A stretch of DNA of 64,000 nucleotides from Psychrobacter sanguinis (lineage in GTDB: Bacteria > Pseudomonadota > Gammaproteobacteria > Pseudomonadales > Moraxellaceae), in NCBI RefSeq assembly GCF_020736705.1, contig NZ_CP085990.1, positions 2,728,001 to 2,792,000 on the forward strand, read 5' to 3'. The translations under genes and the position numbers were made by a program. The notes beneath the pieces are model-generated. The model was not told where the DNA came from. It saw nothing but the letters and a program-made list of their open reading frames with translations, and did no database searches. This document shows, one piece after another, positions 34,191 through 49,412 of this stretch; position 1 is the first letter of the stretch; the number at the start of each line of letters is the position of its first letter.

Positions 34191-35093
34191 ACCGCTAATA
34201 CTCATTAAAAATTAAGCCACCAATTTTTAATATTGAAACAAAAATCGACGAAATAGCTAGTTAAATAGCTGCACCAGCCTGTCACTGCTTGGGGAATACT
34301 ATGACCGTCATTTGGTTACTATTGACCATTATTTTTATTATTTTTACCACTGCAAAATTAAAATGGCATCCCTTCTTAGTGCTAATCTTGTCGGCATTTT
34401 TGGTGGCTTTGTTTTACCAAGTACCTATTGCCGATGTGGCTAAGATTATCTCCGATGGCTTTGGCGGCATCTTAGGCTATATTGGCTTAGTTATCGTTTT
34501 TGGGACGATTATTGGTTTAATTTTGGAGAAGACAGGCGCGGCCATCGTTATGGCTGAGTCGGTGATTAAGCTGATTGGAAAACGCTTTCCCACTTTGACC
34601 ATGTCTATAGTTGGCGCGGTGGTTTCTATTCCTGTTTTTTGTGATTCAGGTTTCGTGATTCTAAACTCTTTAAAAGAATCACTAGCAAAAAGCATGAAGG
34701 TATCTAGTGTGGCAATGAGTGTGGCGCTAGCAACCGGACTTTACGCCACCCATACCTTTGTGCCACCCACCCCAGGCCCTATTGCAGCAGCGGGGAACTT
34801 AGGCTTAGAAAACAACCTAGGTTTGGTCATTATGGTCGGAGTAGTCGTGACCTTTGTTGCGGTTATGGCTGGCTGGTGGTGGTCCAATCGATTTTTAAAT
34901 GTAGAGCCGGATAATACCAATGCAGTAAATGCTCTCGATTCAATATTGCCTGAAAATCAAAAAACTCGAGCTGATTATCCTTATATGCCTTCAGCATTGA
35001 TGGCCTTTTTACCGATTATCGTACCCATTGTTTTAATTTGCTTGTCCTCAGTGGCTAATATCCCGAGCAAACCATTCGGCGATGGCAGTTTAA

Positions 35094-35102
35094 TTGATAT
35101 TA
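35094..35102. repeat. Left 9-bp target site duplication TTGATATTA
   Basis: Identical to the nine bases directly after the right end of the element (36295-36303). A 9-bp duplication is usual for ISAba1 and other IS10-group IS4 elements. Confidence 0.93.
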
Positions 35103-35122
35103 CTCTGCACACGACAAAAAAA
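35103..35122 (+). repeat. Left terminal inverted repeat of the IS
   Basis: CTCTGCACACGACAAAAAAA, an exact reverse complement of the right end. Confidence 0.95.
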
Positions 35123-35178
35123 ACAAAAAAGTCTGTTAAAGCAAAGGCATAATAGTAATTTTTAAGACGAATCAGACC

Positions 35179-36274
35179 ATGCCAAACTTTAACAGACTTA
35201 GTGAAACTTTAACCCAAAACCTGAGTATGAACAAGGCAAGAATCACATGTTTGAGCTTAATGATAATAGCCCTGATTACTGCTCAAAGCAGTAATCTTAA
35301 AAAAAATAGCAAGACACATTCCTAAGGGTGGCAAGACCGACAGTCACTATCGCAGACTACAGCGATTTTTTGCCGAAGCGAGGATAGACTATGATCAATT
35401 AGCTTTAATGATATATCGACTGTTTGGGCTAGGCAAAGTCACCTTAACCATTGACCGCACCAACTGGAAATGGGGTAAAAGTAACCTCAACATCTTTATG
35501 CTAGGGGTGGTATATAAAGGGATAGCCATCCCCTTATACTGGCAAATGCTAGATAAGCGAGGTAATACAAACCATCTTGAACGCTGTGAACTTATTGAGC
35601 GGTTTATCAAACAATTTGGCAAAGATAACCTTGAGATGATAGTAGCAGACAGAGAGTTTGTTGGCGAAAAATGGTTTAACTGGCTCACCAATAATCACAT
35701 ACCCTTTGCCATACGGATTAAGAAGAACAGTAAAGTTAAGAATCATCATGGCAAGTTGGTACAGATTAAAGAGTTATTTCGCCATGTTGGCCATCAAGAA
35801 ACATATCGACATGGGCGAATACTGACTGTCGATGGTTGTTTGGTTCGAGTATTTGCCAAGCGTGATAAAGACTACGGTTTAGTGATTGTGGCAACCAATC
35901 AACTAGAAACAGTGGATGCGATGATAAGCTATGGCAAGCGTTGGGAAATTGAGACTTTATTTGCTTGTCTAAAGGGGAGTGGCTTTAATCTTGAAGATAC
36001 CCACTTAACCCATCTTGATCGGGTCAGTAAATTAGTCGCAGTGAACGCCTTAGCATTTTGTTGGGCTTATCATGTCGGTATTTATAAAGACAAAGATAAG
36101 CCGTTAAAACGCAAGTTGAAGTCAAACGCTCGACCTCAAGCCAGTTTGTTTGCGCTTGGTCTGGATTTATTGATTGAAGGTCTTCGTTTGGTGTTTTTTA
36201 ACAATGATAAGACTGTCTTTCGACAGTTAGTTAGCTTTTTAACCCCTAAACCTATGAAAATCCGGTGGGGATGA
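35179..36274 (+). CDS. IS4-family transposase, frameshifted at an A8 run
   Basis: A DDE transposase resembling that of ISAba1. The first frame (35179-35325) reads MPNFNRLSETLTQNLSMNKA and stops soon after an A8 run at 35299-35306. The rest continues in the +1 frame (IARHIPKGGKTDSHYRRLQRFFAEA...) to 36274. Removing one A restores a single protein of about 364 residues. Catalytic features are in the second part: TIDRTNWKWG (first Asp), VADREFVGEKWF (second Asp) and the IS4 signature Y-2-R-3-E-6-K in YGKRWEIETLFACLK. The shift may be a genuine mutation, a sequencing slip, or transcriptional slippage on the A-run that still yields active enzyme. The largest single frame begins at 35408. Confidence 0.85.
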
Positions 36275-36294
36275 TTTTTTTGTCGTGTGCAGAG
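36275..36294 (-). repeat. Right terminal inverted repeat of the IS
   Basis: TTTTTTTGTCGTGTGCAGAG, the exact reverse complement of the left end; it begins right after the transposase stop. Confidence 0.95.
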
Positions 36295-36303
36295 TTGATA
36301 TTA
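36295..36303. repeat. Right 9-bp target site duplication TTGATATTA
   Basis: Identical to 35094-35102; part of the permease coding sequence. Confidence 0.93.
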
Positions 36304-36860
36304 TTATCTTTTTAGGCAATCCATTAACTGCTCTGTTAATTGGTCTATTTTTGTCGTTTTTACTGATTCAGGGCGAAAATAAAACTCAACGAGTCAGCAC
36401 TTCTATTTCAGAAGGTCTGGTAGTGGCCGCCCCTATTTTATTAATTACTGGCGCTGGTGGTGCTTTTGGCGCTATGTTGAAAGTGACACCCATTGGTGAC
36501 TATTTAGGCACTACGCTTTCAGGTTTAGGCTTGGGTATATTCATGCCATTTGTAGTCTCTGCGGCATTAAAGACAGCCCAAGGCTCAACCACAGTGGCAT
36601 TGGTGACCACCTCGGCCATGGTGGCTCCGCTACTGAGTCAAATTGGCTTGGACAGTGAGCTGGGCAGAGTCTTTGTGGTCATGGCCATTGGTGCCGGTGC
36701 GATGACTGTCTCTCATGCAAATGACAGCTTCTTCTGGATTGTCAGCCAATTTAGCCGTATGAGTGTGTCTCAAGCGTATAAAACCCACTCTGTGGCAACA
36801 GGTATTCAAGGGGTCACCAGTATTATCTTTATCTGGTTATTGACTCTTGTTTTCTTATAA
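36304..36860 (+). pseudogene. GntP-family permease, C-terminal part
   Basis: The rear half of the interrupted symporter. It begins in frame with FLGNPLTALLIGLFLSFLL and contains conserved GntP stretches such as GAGGAFGAMLKVTPIGDYL, AALKTAQGSTTVALVTTSAM and SHANDSFFWIVSQFS. No start codon with a ribosome site is available after the IS, so it is not expected to be translated on its own unless the element provides signals. It is followed after 40 bases by the glycerate kinase gene. Confidence 0.88.
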
Positions 36861-41568: not shown

Positions 41569-43425
41569 TTACTTATGTGATCCACCAGAGCTATAACCGG
41601 TACGACCATTACTGTTACTATTGCCTCCCCCGACACCACCAGGAATAATAATAATCCCGCCACCTCCTCGGGTCGCTTCTTCATCAGGGTTAGGGCCAGT
41701 TACCGCCGGTCTCGAAGCAGCACCAATAAAGAAACTTACGATTAAAGCAATCACTATAATGACCACAGATAACCCTTGAGCGCCCGCAGAGTGATAGTTG
41801 AATGGTCCAGTCTCTACCTCATCATTCACATAATCTTTCTCAGATTCGCTGGCTCTAAAATAGACAATATAAATCAAGATAGCAGCAATAATACCGACAA
41901 TAAGTGAGCCTCCTGCCAGCAGCCACACAGCCGCTTGCAAAATAGTATGCCAAATCAGCAAAGTCTTTAAACTTCCTGACTCACTAAACCCACTATGAGT
42001 GGCTGTTGAATTCTTTTTATTTAAATAGCTGCCAAACCATTCTTCCAGCTTGCTATAACTTATAGGTTTGGCACGGGTATAGGTAATTTCACGCTCAGTT
42101 TGCTCCGAGGTAATGACCTCATCACCGCTGACATAATCTATTAATAAATCACTATCATCGGTTTTAACTTTCCAGTTAAATGCGCCCATCGCAAAGGTCA
42201 CCCTATTGCGATAGCCTGAATCAACCTGACGCCATTGCTTATTGTCGTACAGGAGCTGTCCTCGCTCAGGTACTGGCATTTCACTGAGCACCCTTGCCAC
42301 AAACCAGCCTCTAGACTCCTCGGATAACCACAGAAAACCATCCGTCAGACTATAGAGTAAGTATTCTGTCCAAGTCGCAAATTCACCAACTTCATTCAAG
42401 CGCATGATGCCAATGACCACATAATCATGGTAACTATCACTCACGGCTCTGTTGGCGATCTCATCCTCTGCTAAAGAAAACTTATTAACCTCAATAAGAT
42501 CAGTAGCAGAGATACGCGCTTTAGCACCCAATGGCAACGTACTGTCAAAATGCTGCATTGCTGCATGCATTTCTATGATTTCAGCTTTGCTACCGGTGAG
42601 CTTACTTTCACTGTGACAAGCCGGACAAACTAAGTAATCAGTCGCACCCTCGACATAAGGAATAGGACTACCACAATTAGGACAGTCAATCTTACTAATA
42701 ATCAGTGATGACCCTGCTGCCCTACTTTGACCTGCCTGCTCGTTAATTTGACGCTCATCTTTAAGCAGCTGCATTTGTAGCGCAGCTAACTCAATCGCTT
42801 GACCTTGGTGCACCACAGGTGGATAATCTGGACCTAATTCCGCATAATCTAGGGTAATAAACTCACGTTTATATTGCGCATCTATGACCCAAGTTTCCCA
42901 GCCCTCACCCATGACGAAAGGTAGCTCGCCCTCACCAGCGATGGCATAGGCCTCACGTCTATCACTAACTTGATACCGTACTTGGTTAAACTCTACGCTA
43001 TCAGTAATCGATAGATTATCGTAAGTAGGCAGATTACTAGACTGACCTGAACCAATGGTAATACTGTATTGTCCAAGCGCCTCAGATAGCCATCCTGTGT
43101 CACCATTGGCAAACTGTAAGTACCACTCGTTCCATACCCCTTGCCCATACTGCAATTGCACTCGGCCAATTACAGCAAAATCGTCGCCTTTAAAGCGACC
43201 GACACTGCCTATCTGTACTGGTGAGTAATCCTCAATAGTCAGTGATTGTTTGCCTTGAGCCTTTAAAGCTTCGCCTTCACGCAGCACGGTTGTCTGACAA
43301 TATTCACACACAGCCATGACAGAACCTGGAGAGGCAAACTCTACAGGTGCACCACAAGAGGGACAAGGCGCGGTGAACGTCAGTACGTTAAAGTTACTGG
43401 GTAGCTTAGGCGTTGAGTTGGACAA
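41569..43425 (-). CDS. DUF4178 membrane protein with two zinc ribbons
   Basis: A 618-residue protein of unknown biochemical role. It holds two similar halves, each a zinc ribbon (CPSCGAPVEF...CEYC at about 19-42; CPNCGSPIPY...CPAC at about 246-269) followed by a DUF4178-type beta domain. A first hydrophobic stretch lies at about 490-525 and a second at about 550-573; the tail is Gly/Ser-rich (GGGGIIIIPGGVGGG), like Sec-independent membrane proteins of envelope stress loci. The start is probably the TTG at 43425, with AGAGAG seven bases upstream inside a duplicated 18-bp unit. It is the last gene of a minus-strand set with SPFH, DUF350, AdoMet decarboxylase and aminopropyltransferase genes. 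The zinc-ribbon plus SPFH pairing suggests an assembly at the membrane. Confidence 0.8.
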   Translation of the reverse strand: MSNSTPKLPSNFNVLTFTAPCPSCGAPVEFASPGSVMAVCEYCQTTVLREGEALKAQGKQSLTIEDYSPVQIGSVGRFKGDDFAVIGRVQLQYGQGVWNEWYLQFANGDTGWLSEALGQYSITIGSGQSSNLPTYDNLSITDSVEFNQVRYQVSDRREAYAIAGEGELPFVMGEGWETWVIDAQYKREFITLDYAELGPDYPPVVHQGQAIELAALQMQLLKDERQINEQAGQSRAAGSSLIISKIDCPNCGSPIPYVEGATDYLVCPACHSESKLTGSKAEIIEMHAAMQHFDSTLPLGAKARISATDLIEVNKFSLAEDEIANRAVSDSYHDYVVIGIMRLNEVGEFATWTEYLLYSLTDGFLWLSEESRGWFVARVLSEMPVPERGQLLYDNKQWRQVDSGYRNRVTFAMGAFNWKVKTDDSDLLIDYVSGDEVITSEQTEREITYTRAKPISYSKLEEWFGSYLNKKNSTATHSGFSESGSLKTLLIWHTILQAAVWLLAGGSLIVGIIAAILIYIVYFRASESEKDYVNDEVETGPFNYHSAGAQGLSVVIIVIALIVSFFIGAASRPAVTGPNPDEEATRGGGGIIIIPGGVGGGNSNSNGRTGYSSGGSHK

Positions 43426-43461
43426 GTTGTTACTCTCTATTATGTTGTTACTCTCTATTAT
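43426..43461. repeat. Direct duplication of an 18-bp unit at a gene junction
   Basis: GTTGTTACTCTCTATTAT occurs twice head-to-tail (43426-43443, and 43444-43461). One copy overlaps the SPFH stop codon, and the other carries the AGAGAG ribosome site of the DUF4178 gene on the minus strand. Confidence 0.85.
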
Positions 43462-44516
43462 TTAGACAATTGAGCTAAAATCTTGGCTTTAGTTTCATCA
43501 TAATCTTCTTGGCTTATTAACCCTTGATCTAGCAAAGTTTTTAGCTGAGTTAATCTTGCCATAAAGTCAGGTTCAGCTGCTTGTGGCTGTGTTGTAGATG
43601 GCTGCTGCTGATTTGACTGTTGGTTTGCTTGCTGGTTTTGAGAAGGCATATTAGAACCCCTAGGCTGCATCGCCTCGCTCATTACCTGACCCATATTCAT
43701 ACCCACTCCAAGACCTGCGCCTATGCCTGCCATGCCGCCTTCATTTTTAGCAGCATGTTGAATCGCTTCAGCCGTCTGATAACGGGTATATTCGTTGATA
43801 TCGCCAATCATGCCCATAGAGATGCGTTTATCTAAAGTTTTTTGCAGCTCATCAGGTAATGACACGTTCTCTACCACAAAAGACTCAAGCGACAGACCAT
43901 ATTTAGCAAAATCAGGTTGCAGCTCTTTTCTAATCTCTTCTGCCATTAATCCTTGATTGGCTGCCAGATCAATAAACGCAATCTCACTCTGACCTAAGCC
44001 CGATGCCAAATCTGAAACAATTAAATTACGTAGCTGTGGCTCAATTTGCTCGGCACGATAGTTGTCATTCATACCTGTAATGGTTTGATAGAACTGAGTC
44101 ACATCATTAATTTTGTAAGAGTACATACCGAAAGCACGCAAGCGAACCATACCAAATTCTGAATCTCTGACGGTGACAGGCTGCGTTGTTCCCCATTTAC
44201 GACCTTGTTGTAGACGGGTACTGAAAAACAAAACGTCTGACTTAAAGGGAGAGTCAAAGCCCATGCGCCAATTTCTTAAATTAGTCATCACTGGCAAGGT
44301 TTCAGTGGTCAAAGTATAGCGACCAGCCGTAAAGACATCTGCTATTTGGCCTTCATTAACAAACACCGCCACTTGACCATCGCGCACAGTCAGTGTCGCC
44401 CCATTTTGGATTTCATTATCCGCCATAGGAAATTTCCACATCAATACGTCATCGTCCTGCCAATCCCATTCTATGGCATCAATAAATTGTTTTTTAATAA
44501 AACTTCTAAGTCCCAT
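43458..44516 (-). CDS. SPFH-domain protein with C-terminal SHOCT domain (virion core protein type)
   Basis: A 352-residue protein of the SPFH/Band 7 YdjI-like group. The N-terminal GLRSFIKKQFIDAIEW is an amphipathic lead. The SPFH body contains TLTVRDGQVAVFVNEGQ, TENLP-type TTETLPVMTNLRNW and SLESFVVENVSLPDELQKTLDKR. A Met/Gly segment and a Gln/Asn/Pro linker (about 285-315) lead to a SHOCT domain, FMARLTQLKTLLDQGLISQEDYDETKAKILAQL, a known oligomerisation and membrane-proximal module. Family members are scaffolds near the inner membrane. It lies upstream of the DUF4178 gene, overlapping its 18-bp repeat, and downstream of the DUF350 gene, supporting a shared complex. Confidence 0.82.
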   Translation of the reverse strand: MGLRSFIKKQFIDAIEWDWQDDDVLMWKFPMADNEIQNGATLTVRDGQVAVFVNEGQIADVFTAGRYTLTTETLPVMTNLRNWRMGFDSPFKSDVLFFSTRLQQGRKWGTTQPVTVRDSEFGMVRLRAFGMYSYKINDVTQFYQTITGMNDNYRAEQIEPQLRNLIVSDLASGLGQSEIAFIDLAANQGLMAEEIRKELQPDFAKYGLSLESFVVENVSLPDELQKTLDKRISMGMIGDINEYTRYQTAEAIQHAAKNEGGMAGIGAGLGVGMNMGQVMSEAMQPRGSNMPSQNQQANQQSNQQQPSTTQPQAAEPDFMARLTQLKTLLDQGLISQEDYDETKAKILAQLSK

Positions 44517-44674
44517 GAGAGTTATCCTTTATATTAATTTGATTGAAAATTTTAATTGAATATCAATGATTAACTGGCATTGATTCAGTAGCATTTATAC
44601 AGATACTGCTATTAACCAGCTGTGATTTTAATCTTGATAATAAGTAAATGAATGTCAACGTCAAATCTTAGCGT

Positions 44675-45082
44675 TTAAGATAAGATCCCAGCATTAATAA
44701 TCCCTAATACCAACGCACTTACGCCAAGCAGTCCGCCTACAGCAGTATTATTACGTCGTATATGTTCAGGCACATTACCGATAACTTTTGCCATGATAAA
44801 ATAGCCCACAATCTGTACCGCCATTGCCACCGCACTCCAGATTAAAAAGGCCACAAAGCCCGTGTTGTAGATAGCACTGGCGGCTAACGGCAATGAGAAG
44901 CCCAAGATAGCACCACCAAAACTTAAGGCGGCTGATCCCGATCCCTTACGGATGAGGGCAATTTCATTGTAGGGCGTAAGGGCCATATAAATCATCGAAA
45001 ATACAATGAGCATCACCACGCCGCCACCAAAGTAGATGGCGTAATAAAGTAGTTCCGTCTGCAAGCTGTCAAAATTCTGCAT
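44675..45082 (-). CDS. DUF350 (YjfL-like) membrane protein
   Basis: A 135-residue integral membrane protein with four predicted helices (about 12-33, 50-69, 76-98, 112-133). It shows the DUF350 features NEIALIRKGSGSAALSFGGAILGFSLPLA and a repeat of similar Gly-rich helices. In E. coli the relative YjfL is encoded with a PspA-like protein and a glutathionylspermidine-synthetase-like ATP-grasp enzyme; here it sits with SPFH and polyamine genes. Function is unknown. A 158-base gap separates it from the SPFH gene and 249 bases from the AdoMet decarboxylase gene; I saw no gene or terminator there, only a threefold short repeat of GGTGCTTRTTAAATTG type at 45120-45170. Confidence 0.8.
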   Translation of the reverse strand: MQNFDSLQTELLYYAIYFGGGVVMLIVFSMIYMALTPYNEIALIRKGSGSAALSFGGAILGFSLPLAASAIYNTGFVAFLIWSAVAMAVQIVGYFIMAKVIGNVPEHIRRNNTAVGGLLGVSALVLGIINAGILS

Positions 45083-45331
45083 TAAGTGCGTCCTAAGTTT
45101 TTATTACTTTTATTAAGTTTGGTGCTTATTAAATTGGGTGCTTGTTAAATTGAGTGCTAAATCGAGCGTTGAAGAAGTGATTTGTTAAGTTTAAGCATTT
45201 TTTGGCTGAACTCTAAAATCTAATGCTAACAGCCTAGTATTAATATTAAACTTAAACTTTTATTAAATCCTTAACAGACCCTTTATAAAAATATGACTAC
45301 TTACTCTCTATCATAAAGTAAATATATTGAA

Positions 45332-45841
45332 TTAATGTTGAGAATTGTTTGGTATCTGGTGTTGGCGTGAAACATTATTAACATGGTGTTGTAAAGGCTT
45401 AAAGATATTTTTACATACTTCATATAACGCATCTGCCTTGCCGCTATTGTCTTGTGTGACATTACACACATAGATGTCTAGCGTCACCGTTTGATACTCG
45501 CCCCAAGTGTGCAAACACAGATGAGACTCCGCTAACAACAGAGTCAGGGTGATACCACTGACTTGATTCTCTATGTCGTGGTTTAGGTTAGAGCTTTGGG
45601 TCGTTTCTTCAACTTTGACAGTGTCAGTAGTATTGTCCTGTTGAAACTGCTGACCAAACTCATGTACTGCATTACCGACCAAGGTCAAACCCACCTCTTC
45701 TACTGCCGCTATTAACAAACCTAACAGAGGCTCAGTACGGGTCAAAACTTCAGGCTCGCACTGACATTGCCAAAACTCGGCCAATATATGTTTACCTGTC
45801 ATAGAAGTGCTCTGCATGGGTTCAACCTGTGTCAGTTTCAT
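45332..45841 (-). CDS. speD: S-adenosylmethionine decarboxylase proenzyme (SpeD, Thermotoga-like class)
   Basis: A pyruvoyl enzyme giving decarboxylated AdoMet, the aminopropyl donor. It has 169 residues. The cleavage site is LAESHLCLHTW: Ser106 would become the pyruvoyl group, His111 (Ser+5) and Cys126 (Ser+20, in YVCN) match the spacing of the catalytic residues in the small archaeal/Thermotoga class. The N-terminus includes GKHILAEFWQCQ. An extra stretch of about 25 residues rich in Thr, Glu, Asn and Gln (about 66-92) precedes the cleavage region and is not usual. All key residues remain, so it should be active. It is 113 bases downstream of the aminopropyltransferase gene. Confidence 0.88.
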   Translation of the reverse strand: MKLTQVEPMQSTSMTGKHILAEFWQCQCEPEVLTRTEPLLGLLIAAVEEVGLTLVGNAVHEFGQQFQQDNTTDTVKVEETTQSSNLNHDIENQVSGITLTLLLAESHLCLHTWGEYQTVTLDIYVCNVTQDNSGKADALYEVCKNIFKPLQHHVNNVSRQHQIPNNSQH

Positions 45842-45953
45842 ATTTATAATATTTTCCAGTTACTCATTCTCATTTTGCTTTAACATTTTTATTTAGCTAA
45901 TTTACCAGCTAAATATTTTTATCTAGTTCAAATTCTCGCAGTATTGTTATGAC

Positions 45954-47579
45954 CTACTCATCTGACCAATCTTTTAGATAATAATGCACCAATATTTGCT
46001 TATCTAAAGTATTTGGCTCAACCTCAATCGGCTGCATGTCCGGTGGAAAACTGAACATCTCTCTACTCACAGATGGGGTCAAGAAAGCCATAGGCAAATC
46101 ATAATGAGTCGGTGGCTCAAAGGTAGTATTGGGACTACCCACAATAAAGCCCCACTCTCCAAAAGATGGCACATAAGCATGATAAGGAGTGGTCTTAAAA
46201 CCTGCTAACTGTAAGGTTTTATCAATAGACCAAAACGACCTTGGCGCATAATAAGGTGAGGTAGACTGCACCACCACCAATCCTTCAGCGGTTAAATGAT
46301 CTCGAACCTGATGGTACATAGGCTCCGAATACAGCTTCGCCAAGCTATAATGAGAAGGGTCTGGCAAATCTATAATAATCGCATCAAATAGTCCTTGATT
46401 GCTCTCAAGCCATTTATAAGCATCAGCATTAATCACTGATACCCTTGGATCATTCATCGAATTGCTATTTAACTTCTGAAAACGCGGGGTATTGGCAAAA
46501 AAATCAGTCATTTTTGGGTCTAAATCGACCAAAGTAATATGCTCAACAGAGTCATACTTGAGTACCTCTCGAGCCGCCATACCATCACCACCGCCTAAAA
46601 TAAGTACCTTTAATTTCGGCTTAGTGGCTCGCGTACTGTCACTGAGTTTTTGCATTATTGGATGCACTAAGGCTTCATGATACCGGTATTCATCGCGGGT
46701 AGAAAACTGCAAGTTGCCGTTCAAAAACAACTGAATATAACCATTCTTTTCAGTGACTATCAGACGCTGATAAGGAGAATTGGTGGCAAAAATGACTGGC
46801 GCTTTAAATAGCTTTTGTTCAGACAGACCTACCAATCGATCCGCATAAAGCATACCTACCAATAACAGTATCATTGCCATCAAAATACGCACGATGAGTC
46901 TATTTCTGACCTTATGATGCTTAATACGTTCCGCTTTTAGTTGCTGTGCAGTCAGCTTTTCACCATTTAATCCTTTGTTACTCAGCACTGCTACTTTAGG
47001 ATAAAAATGCCAAGCGGTCCAACCGGCGACCATTACATTCAAAATACCGAATAACACTGCCGAACGGGCCAACCCAAGCATGGGCGCCAATACCAATGGG
47101 AATAATAAAGAAACCGCCAAAGCCCCTAGGTAGTCAAAGGTTAAGACCCGGCTAACCAACTCATGGAAAGCTTGCTTTTGAGAATTAAAGATACGCATCA
47201 CCAGCGGGATTTCCATCCCCACCAGAATACCTATACACATTACCATGGCATAAAGTATGGCTTTAAAGGTAGGCAACCAGGCAAATGCTAAAAACAGTGC
47301 AATAGCAGACAGACCACCAACCAGCCCCACCAATATTTCAATCTCGATAAAGCGTTGCAACACTTTTTCTTCAGGTACGTACTTTGACAAATGCGATCCG
47401 ATACCCATGGCAAACAAGTAAGTACCAATAATGGTCGAAAACTGTAATACCGAGTCGCCTAGTACATAACTTGCCAGCGCTCCTGCTATCAGCTCGTAGG
47501 CCAGACCACAGGAAGCAACGATAAAAACCGACAGCACCAATAGTGAGTCGGTTTGCAAACGTTTAAAGGACAGTTTCAT
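45954..47579 (-). CDS. Membrane-bound polyamine aminopropyltransferase (spermidine synthase-like)
   Basis: A 541-residue fusion of a membrane domain with a spermidine-synthase domain. The first 200 residues contain about six helices (SLLVLSVFIVASCGLAYELI, FAMGIGSHLSKYV and later ones), and one more helix sits at about 228-248. The soluble part has the decarboxylated-AdoMet site VLILGGGDGMAAREVL (about 322), LVDLDPKM, VSVINADAYKWL and IIIDLPDPSHYSLAKLYS. In soluble SpeE the last motif is usually DSSDPxGPA; here it reads DLPDPSHYS, typical of the membrane-attached subfamily. The polyamine acceptor is unknown and may be putrescine, spermidine or an envelope component. It heads the speD-DUF350-SPFH-DUF4178 series and follows msrAB by 54 bases. 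Confidence 0.87.
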   Translation of the reverse strand: MKLSFKRLQTDSLLVLSVFIVASCGLAYELIAGALASYVLGDSVLQFSTIIGTYLFAMGIGSHLSKYVPEEKVLQRFIEIEILVGLVGGLSAIALFLAFAWLPTFKAILYAMVMCIGILVGMEIPLVMRIFNSQKQAFHELVSRVLTFDYLGALAVSLLFPLVLAPMLGLARSAVLFGILNVMVAGWTAWHFYPKVAVLSNKGLNGEKLTAQQLKAERIKHHKVRNRLIVRILMAMILLLVGMLYADRLVGLSEQKLFKAPVIFATNSPYQRLIVTEKNGYIQLFLNGNLQFSTRDEYRYHEALVHPIMQKLSDSTRATKPKLKVLILGGGDGMAAREVLKYDSVEHITLVDLDPKMTDFFANTPRFQKLNSNSMNDPRVSVINADAYKWLESNQGLFDAIIIDLPDPSHYSLAKLYSEPMYHQVRDHLTAEGLVVVQSTSPYYAPRSFWSIDKTLQLAGFKTTPYHAYVPSFGEWGFIVGSPNTTFEPPTHYDLPMAFLTPSVSREMFSFPPDMQPIEVEPNTLDKQILVHYYLKDWSDE

Positions 47580-47633: not shown

Positions 47634-49412
47634 CTATTTGGTTTTTACCATATCCACAAATACCCCATATCCTGACTGTGGCATCTTATCAACCGGAATA
47701 AACTGTAATGCGCCGCCATTGATGCAATAACGTAACCCAGTTTTGTCTTTAGGACCATCATTAAACACATGACCCAAATGAGAGTCTGCAACACGTGAAC
47801 GTACTTCGGTACGCACCATATTAAAGGCCATATCTTTATGCTCTGTAATAACCTCGGGGGCTATCGGCTGCCAAAAACTCGGCCAACCACAGCCTGAGTC
47901 ATACTTATGAGTGGATAAAAATAAGGGTTCACCACTCACCACATCAACATAGATACCTGGCGCAAATAAGTGATCGTACTCATGGCTAAACGCACGCTCT
48001 GTTCCCGCCTTTTGGGTAATATCATACTGCGATTTGGTCAACGTATTTTTAAGGGCGTTTTTATCAAAATTAGCATAGCGTTTAGGATCTAACGCTTGCT
48101 GTACCGTCGTGGCCTCTGTCAATTTTTTGGTGCCACTGCTACCAGACGCTTGTACTTTGTCATCGGCTAGGCTCAAATCAATGTGGCAATAACCATTAGG
48201 GTTTTTGGCCAAATAATCTTGATGGTACTCTTCGGCCAATGCGAAGTTTGCCAAAGGTTTTTCCTCAACCACAATTTTCTGACTGTATTTACCTTTAAGC
48301 TGCTGCAACGCTCGGTCAATAATGGCTTTATCAGCTGCGTCCGTATAGTAAATACCGGTACGATACTGCACACCCCTATCATTACCTTGCTTATTTAAGC
48401 TGGTCGGATCAATGACCCTAAAGTAATATTTTAATACCGTTTCTAAGTCTATTTTATCCGCATCATATACCACTTTTACAGTTTCAGCATGACCAGAGCC
48501 CGCGATAACTTGTTCATAACTTGGGTCTTTGACGTTGGGATTACCATTGGCATATCCTGAGATAGCATCTACTACCCCATCGACACGCTCCATGTAAGCC
48601 TCAAGACCCCAAAAACAGCCACCTGCTAGATAAATTGTTTTGGTATTAATCGGTGTGCCAGCAGAGTTGTAATATACCCCATTCTTACTTTTAGACGTTG
48701 AAGACTGAGCTTGTTGCTGACTGTCAGCTCCTACCGCTGTGGGCTTGGCTTTGCTATTTTTAAGATCTTTAAAGTCATTGCCTGCGTTTTCCGCTAAAGC
48801 ATACGCTTGCTCATTGGTTAAGTTGCCTTTTACCAAACGCACTAAATTGCCTTTTTTATCTAAAATGGCCCAACTGGGATAAACCTGAACACCCAGTTGA
48901 TTTATCAAGCTGCCTGAGCTGTCAATTAAAACCGGTAGCTTTGGATAATCCGCTTGCACCCCTGCATACCACTGTTTAAAGTCTGACGCCTCTTTTTCAT
49001 TCAAGTGACCGGGACTTGCGACACTAATGACGTTTAACCCGGCAAAGGCTTTATCCTTGCGCCAGCTTTCTGTTTCTTCTAATGTACCTAAGCATAATGG
49101 ACACCAACTCGCCCAAAACTTCACTAAGGTTGGCTTATTGCTATCAATTACCTGACTACCAGTATTACCCAGACCTTGGGTTAATTGAGGCAATTTTTTT
49201 AACTGATTAAGTACGTCGCTTGGCAGCATGTCACGGCTATCGGTAATCCCTGTATTTGAGGACTCCGCTGTGGGCTTAGTACTGTTGTCTTGAGATACTT
49301 TCCCGCAGGCAGGCAATAAGGTGCCGCTCGCGACAATAAACCCCGTTAGTAAAGCGATACGTTTTAATTGTGGACGTTTTTTAGCGAGGGTTTGGGGAGA
49401 TGAATGTGACAT
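47634..49412 (-). CDS. msrAB: Thioredoxin-MsrA-MsrB trifunctional lipoprotein (PilB-like)
   Basis: A 592-residue periplasm-facing methionine sulfoxide reductase. The order is a signal peptide ending in a lipobox LPAC (Cys36); a thioredoxin-like reductase domain with FWASWCPLC (about 103-111); an MsrA domain with [11 protein letters not shown] (about 263-273), which repairs Met-S-sulfoxide; and an MsrB domain with SGCGWPSFW and the catalytic RYCINGGAL Cys (about 568), which repairs Met-R-sulfoxide. It resembles Neisseria PilB, and no CxxC zinc site is seen in MsrB, as in PilB. The domain organisation makes it self-sufficient for recycling. It lies 54 bases upstream of the aminopropyltransferase gene on the same strand, so co-transcription is possible. 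Confidence 0.93.

Follow-up and report, generated by a model that had tools for sequence, protein, structure and literature searches.

Locus and Gene Content

The stretch of DNA analysed here is a 64,000-nt segment of Psychrobacter sanguinis contig NZ_CP085990.1 (positions 2,728,001 to 2,792,000), hereafter called the window. At 41569-47579, on the minus strand, it carries genes of five families: a membrane-fused aminopropyltransferase (APT), an S-adenosylmethionine (AdoMet) decarboxylase, a DUF350 protein, an SPFH-SHOCT protein and a double-zinc-ribbon DUF4178 protein. The five genes are a real, conserved module and not a chance grouping, and they may serve a dedicated pathway of aminopropyl transfer in the cell envelope. 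An initial annotation, made from the sequence alone, had listed these families in a single direction, and domain matches confirmed this; the decarboxylase residues Ser106, His111 and Cys126 and the two-fold zinc ribbon of the DUF4178 protein were exactly as it had claimed. The genes are as follows:

45954..47579, minus strand: APT with seven N-terminal membrane helices, 541 aa (Spermine_synth, E 2e-36)
45332..45841, minus strand: AdoMet decarboxylase (SpeD), 169 aa (AdoMet_dc, E 2e-21; Ser106/His111/Cys126)
44675..45082, minus strand: DUF350 (YjfL family) protein, 135 aa (DUF350, E 4e-30)
43458..44516, minus strand: SPFH/Band_7_1 protein with C-terminal SHOCT, 352 aa (Band_7_1, E 1e-78)
41569..43425, minus strand: DUF4178 protein with two zinc ribbons and C-terminal helices, 618 aa, TTG start (DUF4178, E 2e-26)
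47634..49412, minus strand: thioredoxin-MsrA-MsrB protein, 54 nt upstream of APT on the same strand; module membership doubtful

In the order APT-SpeD-DUF350-SPFH-DUF4178, the genes are separated by gaps of 112, 249, 158 and 32 nt. The APT scored 634.5 bits against NCBIfam model PRK03612 (NF002956; cut-off 472), which makes it a member of that family by whole-protein score. SpeD scored 76.5 bits against PF02675 (cut-off 25), with the processing residue Ser106 and the catalytic His111 and Cys126 all present; it fell narrowly short of the TIGR03330 (SAM_DCase_Bsu) equivalog cut-off (71.8 vs 75.65 bits) and is not assigned to that equivalog. The Band_7_1 domain of the SPFH protein scored 264.3 bits (cut-off 24). 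The zinc ribbons of the DUF4178 protein comprise eight Cys in four CxxC pairs (C21, C24, C40, C43; C248, C251, C267, C270). Its AF2 model was mediocre (pLDDT 68.6), and the fold search against the PDB returned nothing at E <= 0.001 (best E 1.8e-3, prob 0.12), an absence that is uninformative. Promoter and terminator scans of the locus gave sites no commoner than in shuffled sequence. A short tandem duplication lies at 43361-43470 (minus strand), between the SPFH stop and the DUF4178 TTG start.

Conservation and Linkage of the Five Families

Using the APT alignment as bait, at least 576 confirmed loci were found in genome_contigs, and the best 80 of these, which are the nearest to the window's APT and not a random sample, were fetched. 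Co-occurrence was counted by using each window protein as a single query (E <= 1e-5), some of the contigs being cut. APT, SPFH and DUF350 were each present in 80/80 loci, DUF4178 in 76 and SpeD in 71; all five were found together in 71/80. Profile searches with a strict overlap rule gave all five in 63/80 loci, the rule having lost 8 real DUF350 genes that the single-query search recovers. Five loci (L003-L007), four of them Psychrobacter and one a Moraxellaceae metagenome-assembled genome (MAG), have the gene order of the window on one strand. In the other 75, most of which carry a betaproteobacterial title, such DUF350-SPFH-DUF4178-(SpeD) genes as were found run on the opposite strand, leading away from APT. 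That the membership stays constant while the arrangement varies argues for a common function. The conserved co-occurrence that the initial annotation had suggested looking for across genomes is present, in two arrangements, and co-occurrence by chance is refuted.

A less biased draw from the phylum gave 31 of 299 genomes with an APT over the family cut-off; the 31st was the window's own, leaving 30 loci. DUF350 and DUF4178 were each present in 24 of these, SpeD in 13, SPFH in 7 and PspA with DUF2170 in 8, and 4 more loci had a CesT-type and a PspA-cluster gene (Pfam-confirmed in L134 only). SPFH and PspA never occurred together in the 30 loci, and PspA was not found in any of the best 80. Three of the 30 lacked every tested family, several contigs being short. 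DUF4178 is rare, with 3/185 class genomes over the cut-off, the window's own included, and APT is patchy inside the genus (7/100 genomes over the cut-off).

The DUF350 relatives near APT come in forms of ~70, 135 and ~300 aa (L115, L119, L121; window 44675-45082; L132:6977-7879), as though a small unit of two helices were present once, twice or four times. In the Psychrobacter MAG L006, two open reading frames (ORFs) match the APT profile and two the SPFH profile, which looks like splitting or misassembly, and the APT match in one genus genome (L206, G491:C54) has a stop codon within the membrane part.

Catalytic and Intramembrane Residues of the Aminopropyltransferase

We compared 231 APTs, made up of 120 database hits, the 80 and 30 loci above and the window; they are not independent, and some are perhaps the same protein. 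The catalytic set Q291, D296, Y300, H301, D332, D386 and D407 was present in 231/231, and D404 in 229/231; we take their roles in binding decarboxylated AdoMet (dcAdoMet) and in transfer catalysis to be those known from SpeE. Within the membrane, E123, R129, D149 and N181 were likewise conserved in all 231 sequences, E81 in 229 and E29 in 226, a set of residues that would suit a path for a cation. Both the catalytic residues and the intramembrane acids are kept across the variants of the module. The loop after the catalytic DxxDP, on the acceptor side, is family-specific (DPSxYxLxKLYS) and differs from that of SpeE.

In a fold search, which barely probes the helical part of the protein, the nearest structures are polyamine aminopropyltransferases, namely the soluble spermidine/triamine synthases 1uir and 3anx. 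A match to the major facilitator superfamily (MFS) model MFS_1 was found in 2/19 family members (best 6e-8).

Predicted Sidedness of the Catalytic Domain

The distribution of positive charge suggests that the catalytic domain lies outside the cytoplasm. Averaged over the family, the number of Lys and Arg residues was 2.33 in the N-terminus and 2.72, 3.35 and 3.12 in loops L2, L4 and L6, compared to 0.07, 0.94 and 1.22 in L1, L3 and L5 and 1.65 after the seventh helix, on the opposite side. With the topology that places the catalytic domain outside, the inside sum exceeded the outside sum in 227/227 APTs, the 4 sequences without an N-terminus having been left out.

The scarcity of Cys points the same way. 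The catalytic part of the APT has 0.11 Cys per 100 aa (160/231 are Cys-free and none has two), while proteins matching the SpeE model in the phylum have 1.51 per 100 aa, with 1-7 Cys each and 0/25 Cys-free; of these 25, L166 and L167 score below the cut-off and L150 has a long extension at its N-terminus. In the membrane part of the APT the figure is 1.08 per 100 aa. Cys depletion by itself was judged insufficient, because the SPFH protein, presumed cytosolic, is also Cys-poor (0.21 per 100 aa; 64/80 Cys-free) and the oxidase described below is not depleted (1.15 per 100 aa; 82 counted). Proteins exported by the twin-arginine translocation (Tat) pathway fold before export.

Oxidase and Other Extracytoplasmic Partners

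A flavin adenine dinucleotide (FAD)-dependent oxidase related to the amine-oxidase superfamily was encoded in 75/80 of the nearest loci and in 9/30 phylum loci, with PF01593 over the cut-off in the three that were scanned. The oxidase-free loci among the 80 were four from Psychrobacter (L003-L006) and one from Neisseria (L078). Anchoring on the dinucleotide motif located 66 of the 84 genes, all 66 on the APT strand, one of which (L044) reads as a broken frame; the 18 missed by the pattern lie outside the Tat count (a cruder earlier count gave 69/84). Ahead of the dinucleotide motif, a permissive pattern found a Tat motif in 62/66, and 3 more have a twin Arg by eye. The distance from the end of APT to the twin-Arg codons (n = 62) was within 150 nt in 58 cases, 47 of them at 6 nt; in the other four it was 564 to 5071 nt, so adjacency is not universal.

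A lipoprotein-like family was found at 6/8 PspA/DUF2170 loci and at 8/30 phylum loci overall, with a lipobox recognized by eye in four. An extracytoplasmic partner is thus common in both types of locus.

The window's genome has two other PF01593 genes, one of which (L174) has a twin-arginine start and resembles the L007 oxidase only at the FAD-binding end. This FAD oxidase gene (L174:1477-3117; C1, ~1.048 Mb) lies beside an ORF resembling, by reading, a c-type cytochrome.

Polyamine Genes Elsewhere in the Genome

The window's genome, of 3.4 Mb, has one AdoMet_dc match and one Spermine_synth match, both in this locus. A soluble SpeE was not found in it, the sole Spermine_synth match (E <= 0.001) being the fused APT. 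About 0.12 Mb from the locus lies an ornithine decarboxylase with the OKR_DC fold, which scored 1272.7 bits against PRK13578 (cut-off 794) and 1198.7 bits against the model for inducible SpeF, short of its cut-off of 1310. Supply of putrescine is therefore possible. The one PF02784 match is LysA. The initial annotation had taken the lack of speE and speA/C nearby as a sign of a dedicated pathway: the absence of SpeE extends to the whole genome, but that of speA/C is only local. In a joint draw, 13/14 genomes with a fused APT had no soluble SpeE over the cut-off; one genome, G139, had both.

Proposed Function and Alternatives

The linkage in two arrangements, the sole AdoMet_dc and Spermine_synth matches, the conserved residues, the charge pattern, the scarcity of Cys and the Tat-type oxidase lead us to favour a dedicated envelope module, in which dcAdoMet from the cytosol would be the aminopropyl donor for an amine acceptor at the periplasmic face. 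We give this reading, which is drawn from sequence, a nearly even chance. SpeD would produce dcAdoMet in the cytosol. Six helices of the APT, perhaps half-MFS-like, would sit in the inner membrane, and the seventh would carry the catalytic domain to the periplasmic face; the conserved acidic residues within the helices could ease the passage of dcAdoMet, a cation, or of the product through the membrane. The catalytic domain would then move the aminopropyl group onto an envelope amine; our guess would be a lipid head group first and an exported polyamine next. In the majority of the relatives examined, a Tat-exported oxidase encoded nearby may act on the product of this transfer or on its acceptor, a gene that is absent from the Psychrobacter version. 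SPFH-SHOCT, DUF4178 and DUF350 would form a membrane scaffold, in place of the CesT/PspA of related operons. We infer the acceptor, the transport step and the substrate of the oxidase, and likewise a role in envelope stress.

The more specific proposal of a periplasmic alkylation derived from AdoMet is tentative, and as a whole rather doubtful. It would have dcAdoMet exported via the acid-lined membrane domain of the APT and an envelope component aminopropylated outside, with the Tat-exported oxidase then modifying the product in most carriers and SPFH or PspA/CesT acting as scaffold.

Several observations weigh against these proposals. Helices 2 and 6 reach only moderate hydrophobicity, with family peaks of ~1.5. 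If helix 6 did not span, the catalytic domain would be cytosolic and the charge score would still be +4.7, vs +7.6 for the favoured topology; if helix 7 did not span, the score, by arithmetic on mean charges, would be ~+10.9, higher than the favoured one, an option weakened by the strong hydrophobicity of helix 7 (peak 2.05). The related MFS_SpdSyn family (L184-L204; NF037959 in L184), another membrane-fused, SpeE-like protein present in 21/100 genus genomes, invariably keeps four Cys as two close pairs (21/21); we count this in favour of the envelope module, but the pairs could bind a metal instead. The window APT is not among the MFS_1 matches, and the L007 oxidase has no match in the window's genome, so that the link to the oxidase comes from relatives. 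Finally, dcAdoMet is made in the cytosol, and we know of no exporter for it.

Some of these points would suit a catalytic domain at the cytosolic face, aminopropylating a lipid or membrane protein there; the product would be flipped or left in place, and scaffolds of the SPFH/PspA type would deal with its effects on the membrane. At that face, dcAdoMet is available; no export signal is visible in SpeD, the SPFH protein and the zinc-ribbon DUF4178 protein seem by reading to be cytosolic, helices 2 and 6 are of moderate hydrophobicity, and the arrangement comes near the proposal in the passages of Ravi et al. (PMC11237479). The charge pattern, the Cys depletion and the Tat-type oxidase all speak against it, and we consider it unlikely.

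Ordinary spermidine synthesis by a membrane-anchored SpeE, using putrescine from the ornithine decarboxylase together with this SpeD and APT, would account for the sole SpeD and the sole SpeE-like domain of the genome, for the intact catalytic residues and for the nearest structures. The absence of a soluble SpeE from 13/14 genomes fits it and the favoured envelope module equally, and a Tat-exported oxidase would also suit a polyamine, as in the published account of SpdH (PMC11107197). It does not explain the constant company of DUF350, SPFH or PspA, and DUF4178, nor the family-specific acceptor-side loop, nor the presence of both enzymes in G139. Fusions of this kind reportedly gave no spermidine and no complementation (Li et al. 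2019), and we regard this explanation as quite improbable. A chance neighbourhood of unrelated genes, which the long gaps in the window (112-249 nt) and the chance-level promoter- and terminator-like sites might suggest, is refuted by the linkage in both samples (all five in 71/80 loci, in two arrangements; DUF350 and DUF4178 each in 24/30) and has a negligible probability.

If the periplasmic alkylation is real, aminopropyl groups would remodel the charge of the envelope, an outcome like that of lysyl or aminoarabinose modification, by a chemistry that is new. If the catalytic domain does lie outside, there would be a simple reason why fusions of this type reportedly did not complement a mutant in spermidine synthase; the acceptor would be looked for in the envelope or in amines that are exported, and dcAdoMet would be counted with the small number of activated metabolites put to use outside the cytoplasm. 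For DUF350 and DUF4178, both orphan families, the module would provide a shared setting open to test.

Other Features of the Window

The thioredoxin-MsrA-MsrB gene upstream of APT was also seen in three other Psychrobacter loci (L004-L006). As a general member of the module it was rejected, being within the fetched flanks of only 4/80 loci. A defence system was likewise rejected: PADLOC gave only a Mad2 match to the APT domain (E 7e-16, residues 318-468), which we take to reflect a shared methyltransferase-like fold. A GntP-type permease is apparently split at 34289-36860 (plus strand), with an N-terminal part at 34289-35152 (by reading), a DDE transposase at 35408-36274 and a C-terminal GntP part at 36285-36860.

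Comparison with Described Systems

Li et al. 2019 (Biochem J 476:2579) is said to have described clusters of AdoMetDC, an MFS-SpdSyn fusion and DUF350, and to have proposed a polyamine-independent role, the fusions reportedly having no spermidine synthase activity. The same three genes occur here; SPFH, DUF4178 and an argument on sidedness are not known to be part of that work. The soluble synthases 1uir and 3anx share the catalytic fold and the dcAdoMet-side residues of the APT, but have no membrane part and a different acceptor loop.

This kind of system is already in print, and the window locus is an SPFH-type variant of it; the initial annotation's description of it as little-described does not stand. 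Passages of Ravi et al. 2024 (mSystems, PMC11237479) describe operons of a 7TM (seven-transmembrane)-fused spermine/spermidine synthase with DUF350, DUF4178 and CesT/PspA, read them in terms of envelope stress and, with reference to Li et al. 2019, bring up other substrates for aminopropylation. Their PspA-CesT/Tir group 2 shares with the window the fused APT and its DUF350 and DUF4178 neighbours. Unlike in that group, as described in these passages, SPFH-SHOCT replaces CesT/PspA here, AdoMetDC is in the row, and no lipoprotein gene was seen. A CesT/Tir-PspA dyad was not found among the nine window genes scanned around the locus, SPFH-SHOCT standing in its place; the locus is thus a variant of group 2 and not a member. 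The parallel that the initial annotation had drawn between DUF350 and operons with PspA and ATP-grasp enzymes is also found there: group 3 comprises DUF350 with glutathionylspermidine-synthetase-like ATP-grasp operons, one variant having band-7-SHOCT instead of PspA, plus AdoMetDC and a polyamine oxidase (PMC11237479). DUF350, a membrane scaffold and amine chemistry are common to group 3 and the window locus, but group 3, as these passages present it, uses a ligase and not an aminopropyltransferase.

The initial interpretation is thus partly supported, by the linkage and by the sole SpeD and SpeE-like domains, but not in calling the system little-described or in its reliance on the absence of speA/C; the Tat-type oxidase of relatives and the predicted sidedness of the catalytic domain were beyond its reach. 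SpdH, the spermidine dehydrogenase of Pseudomonas aeruginosa, is reported to carry a Tat signal (PMC11107197) and is, as proposed for the oxidase here, a folded polyamine oxidase-type enzyme exported by Tat. The passages of Ravi et al. (PMC11237479) mention neither a periplasmic catalytic domain nor a Tat signal on an APT-linked oxidase. What the present analysis adds to the published picture is the link to a Tat-type oxidase, the outside-pointing charge pattern, the Cys-poor catalytic domain and the residues kept across the variants of the module.

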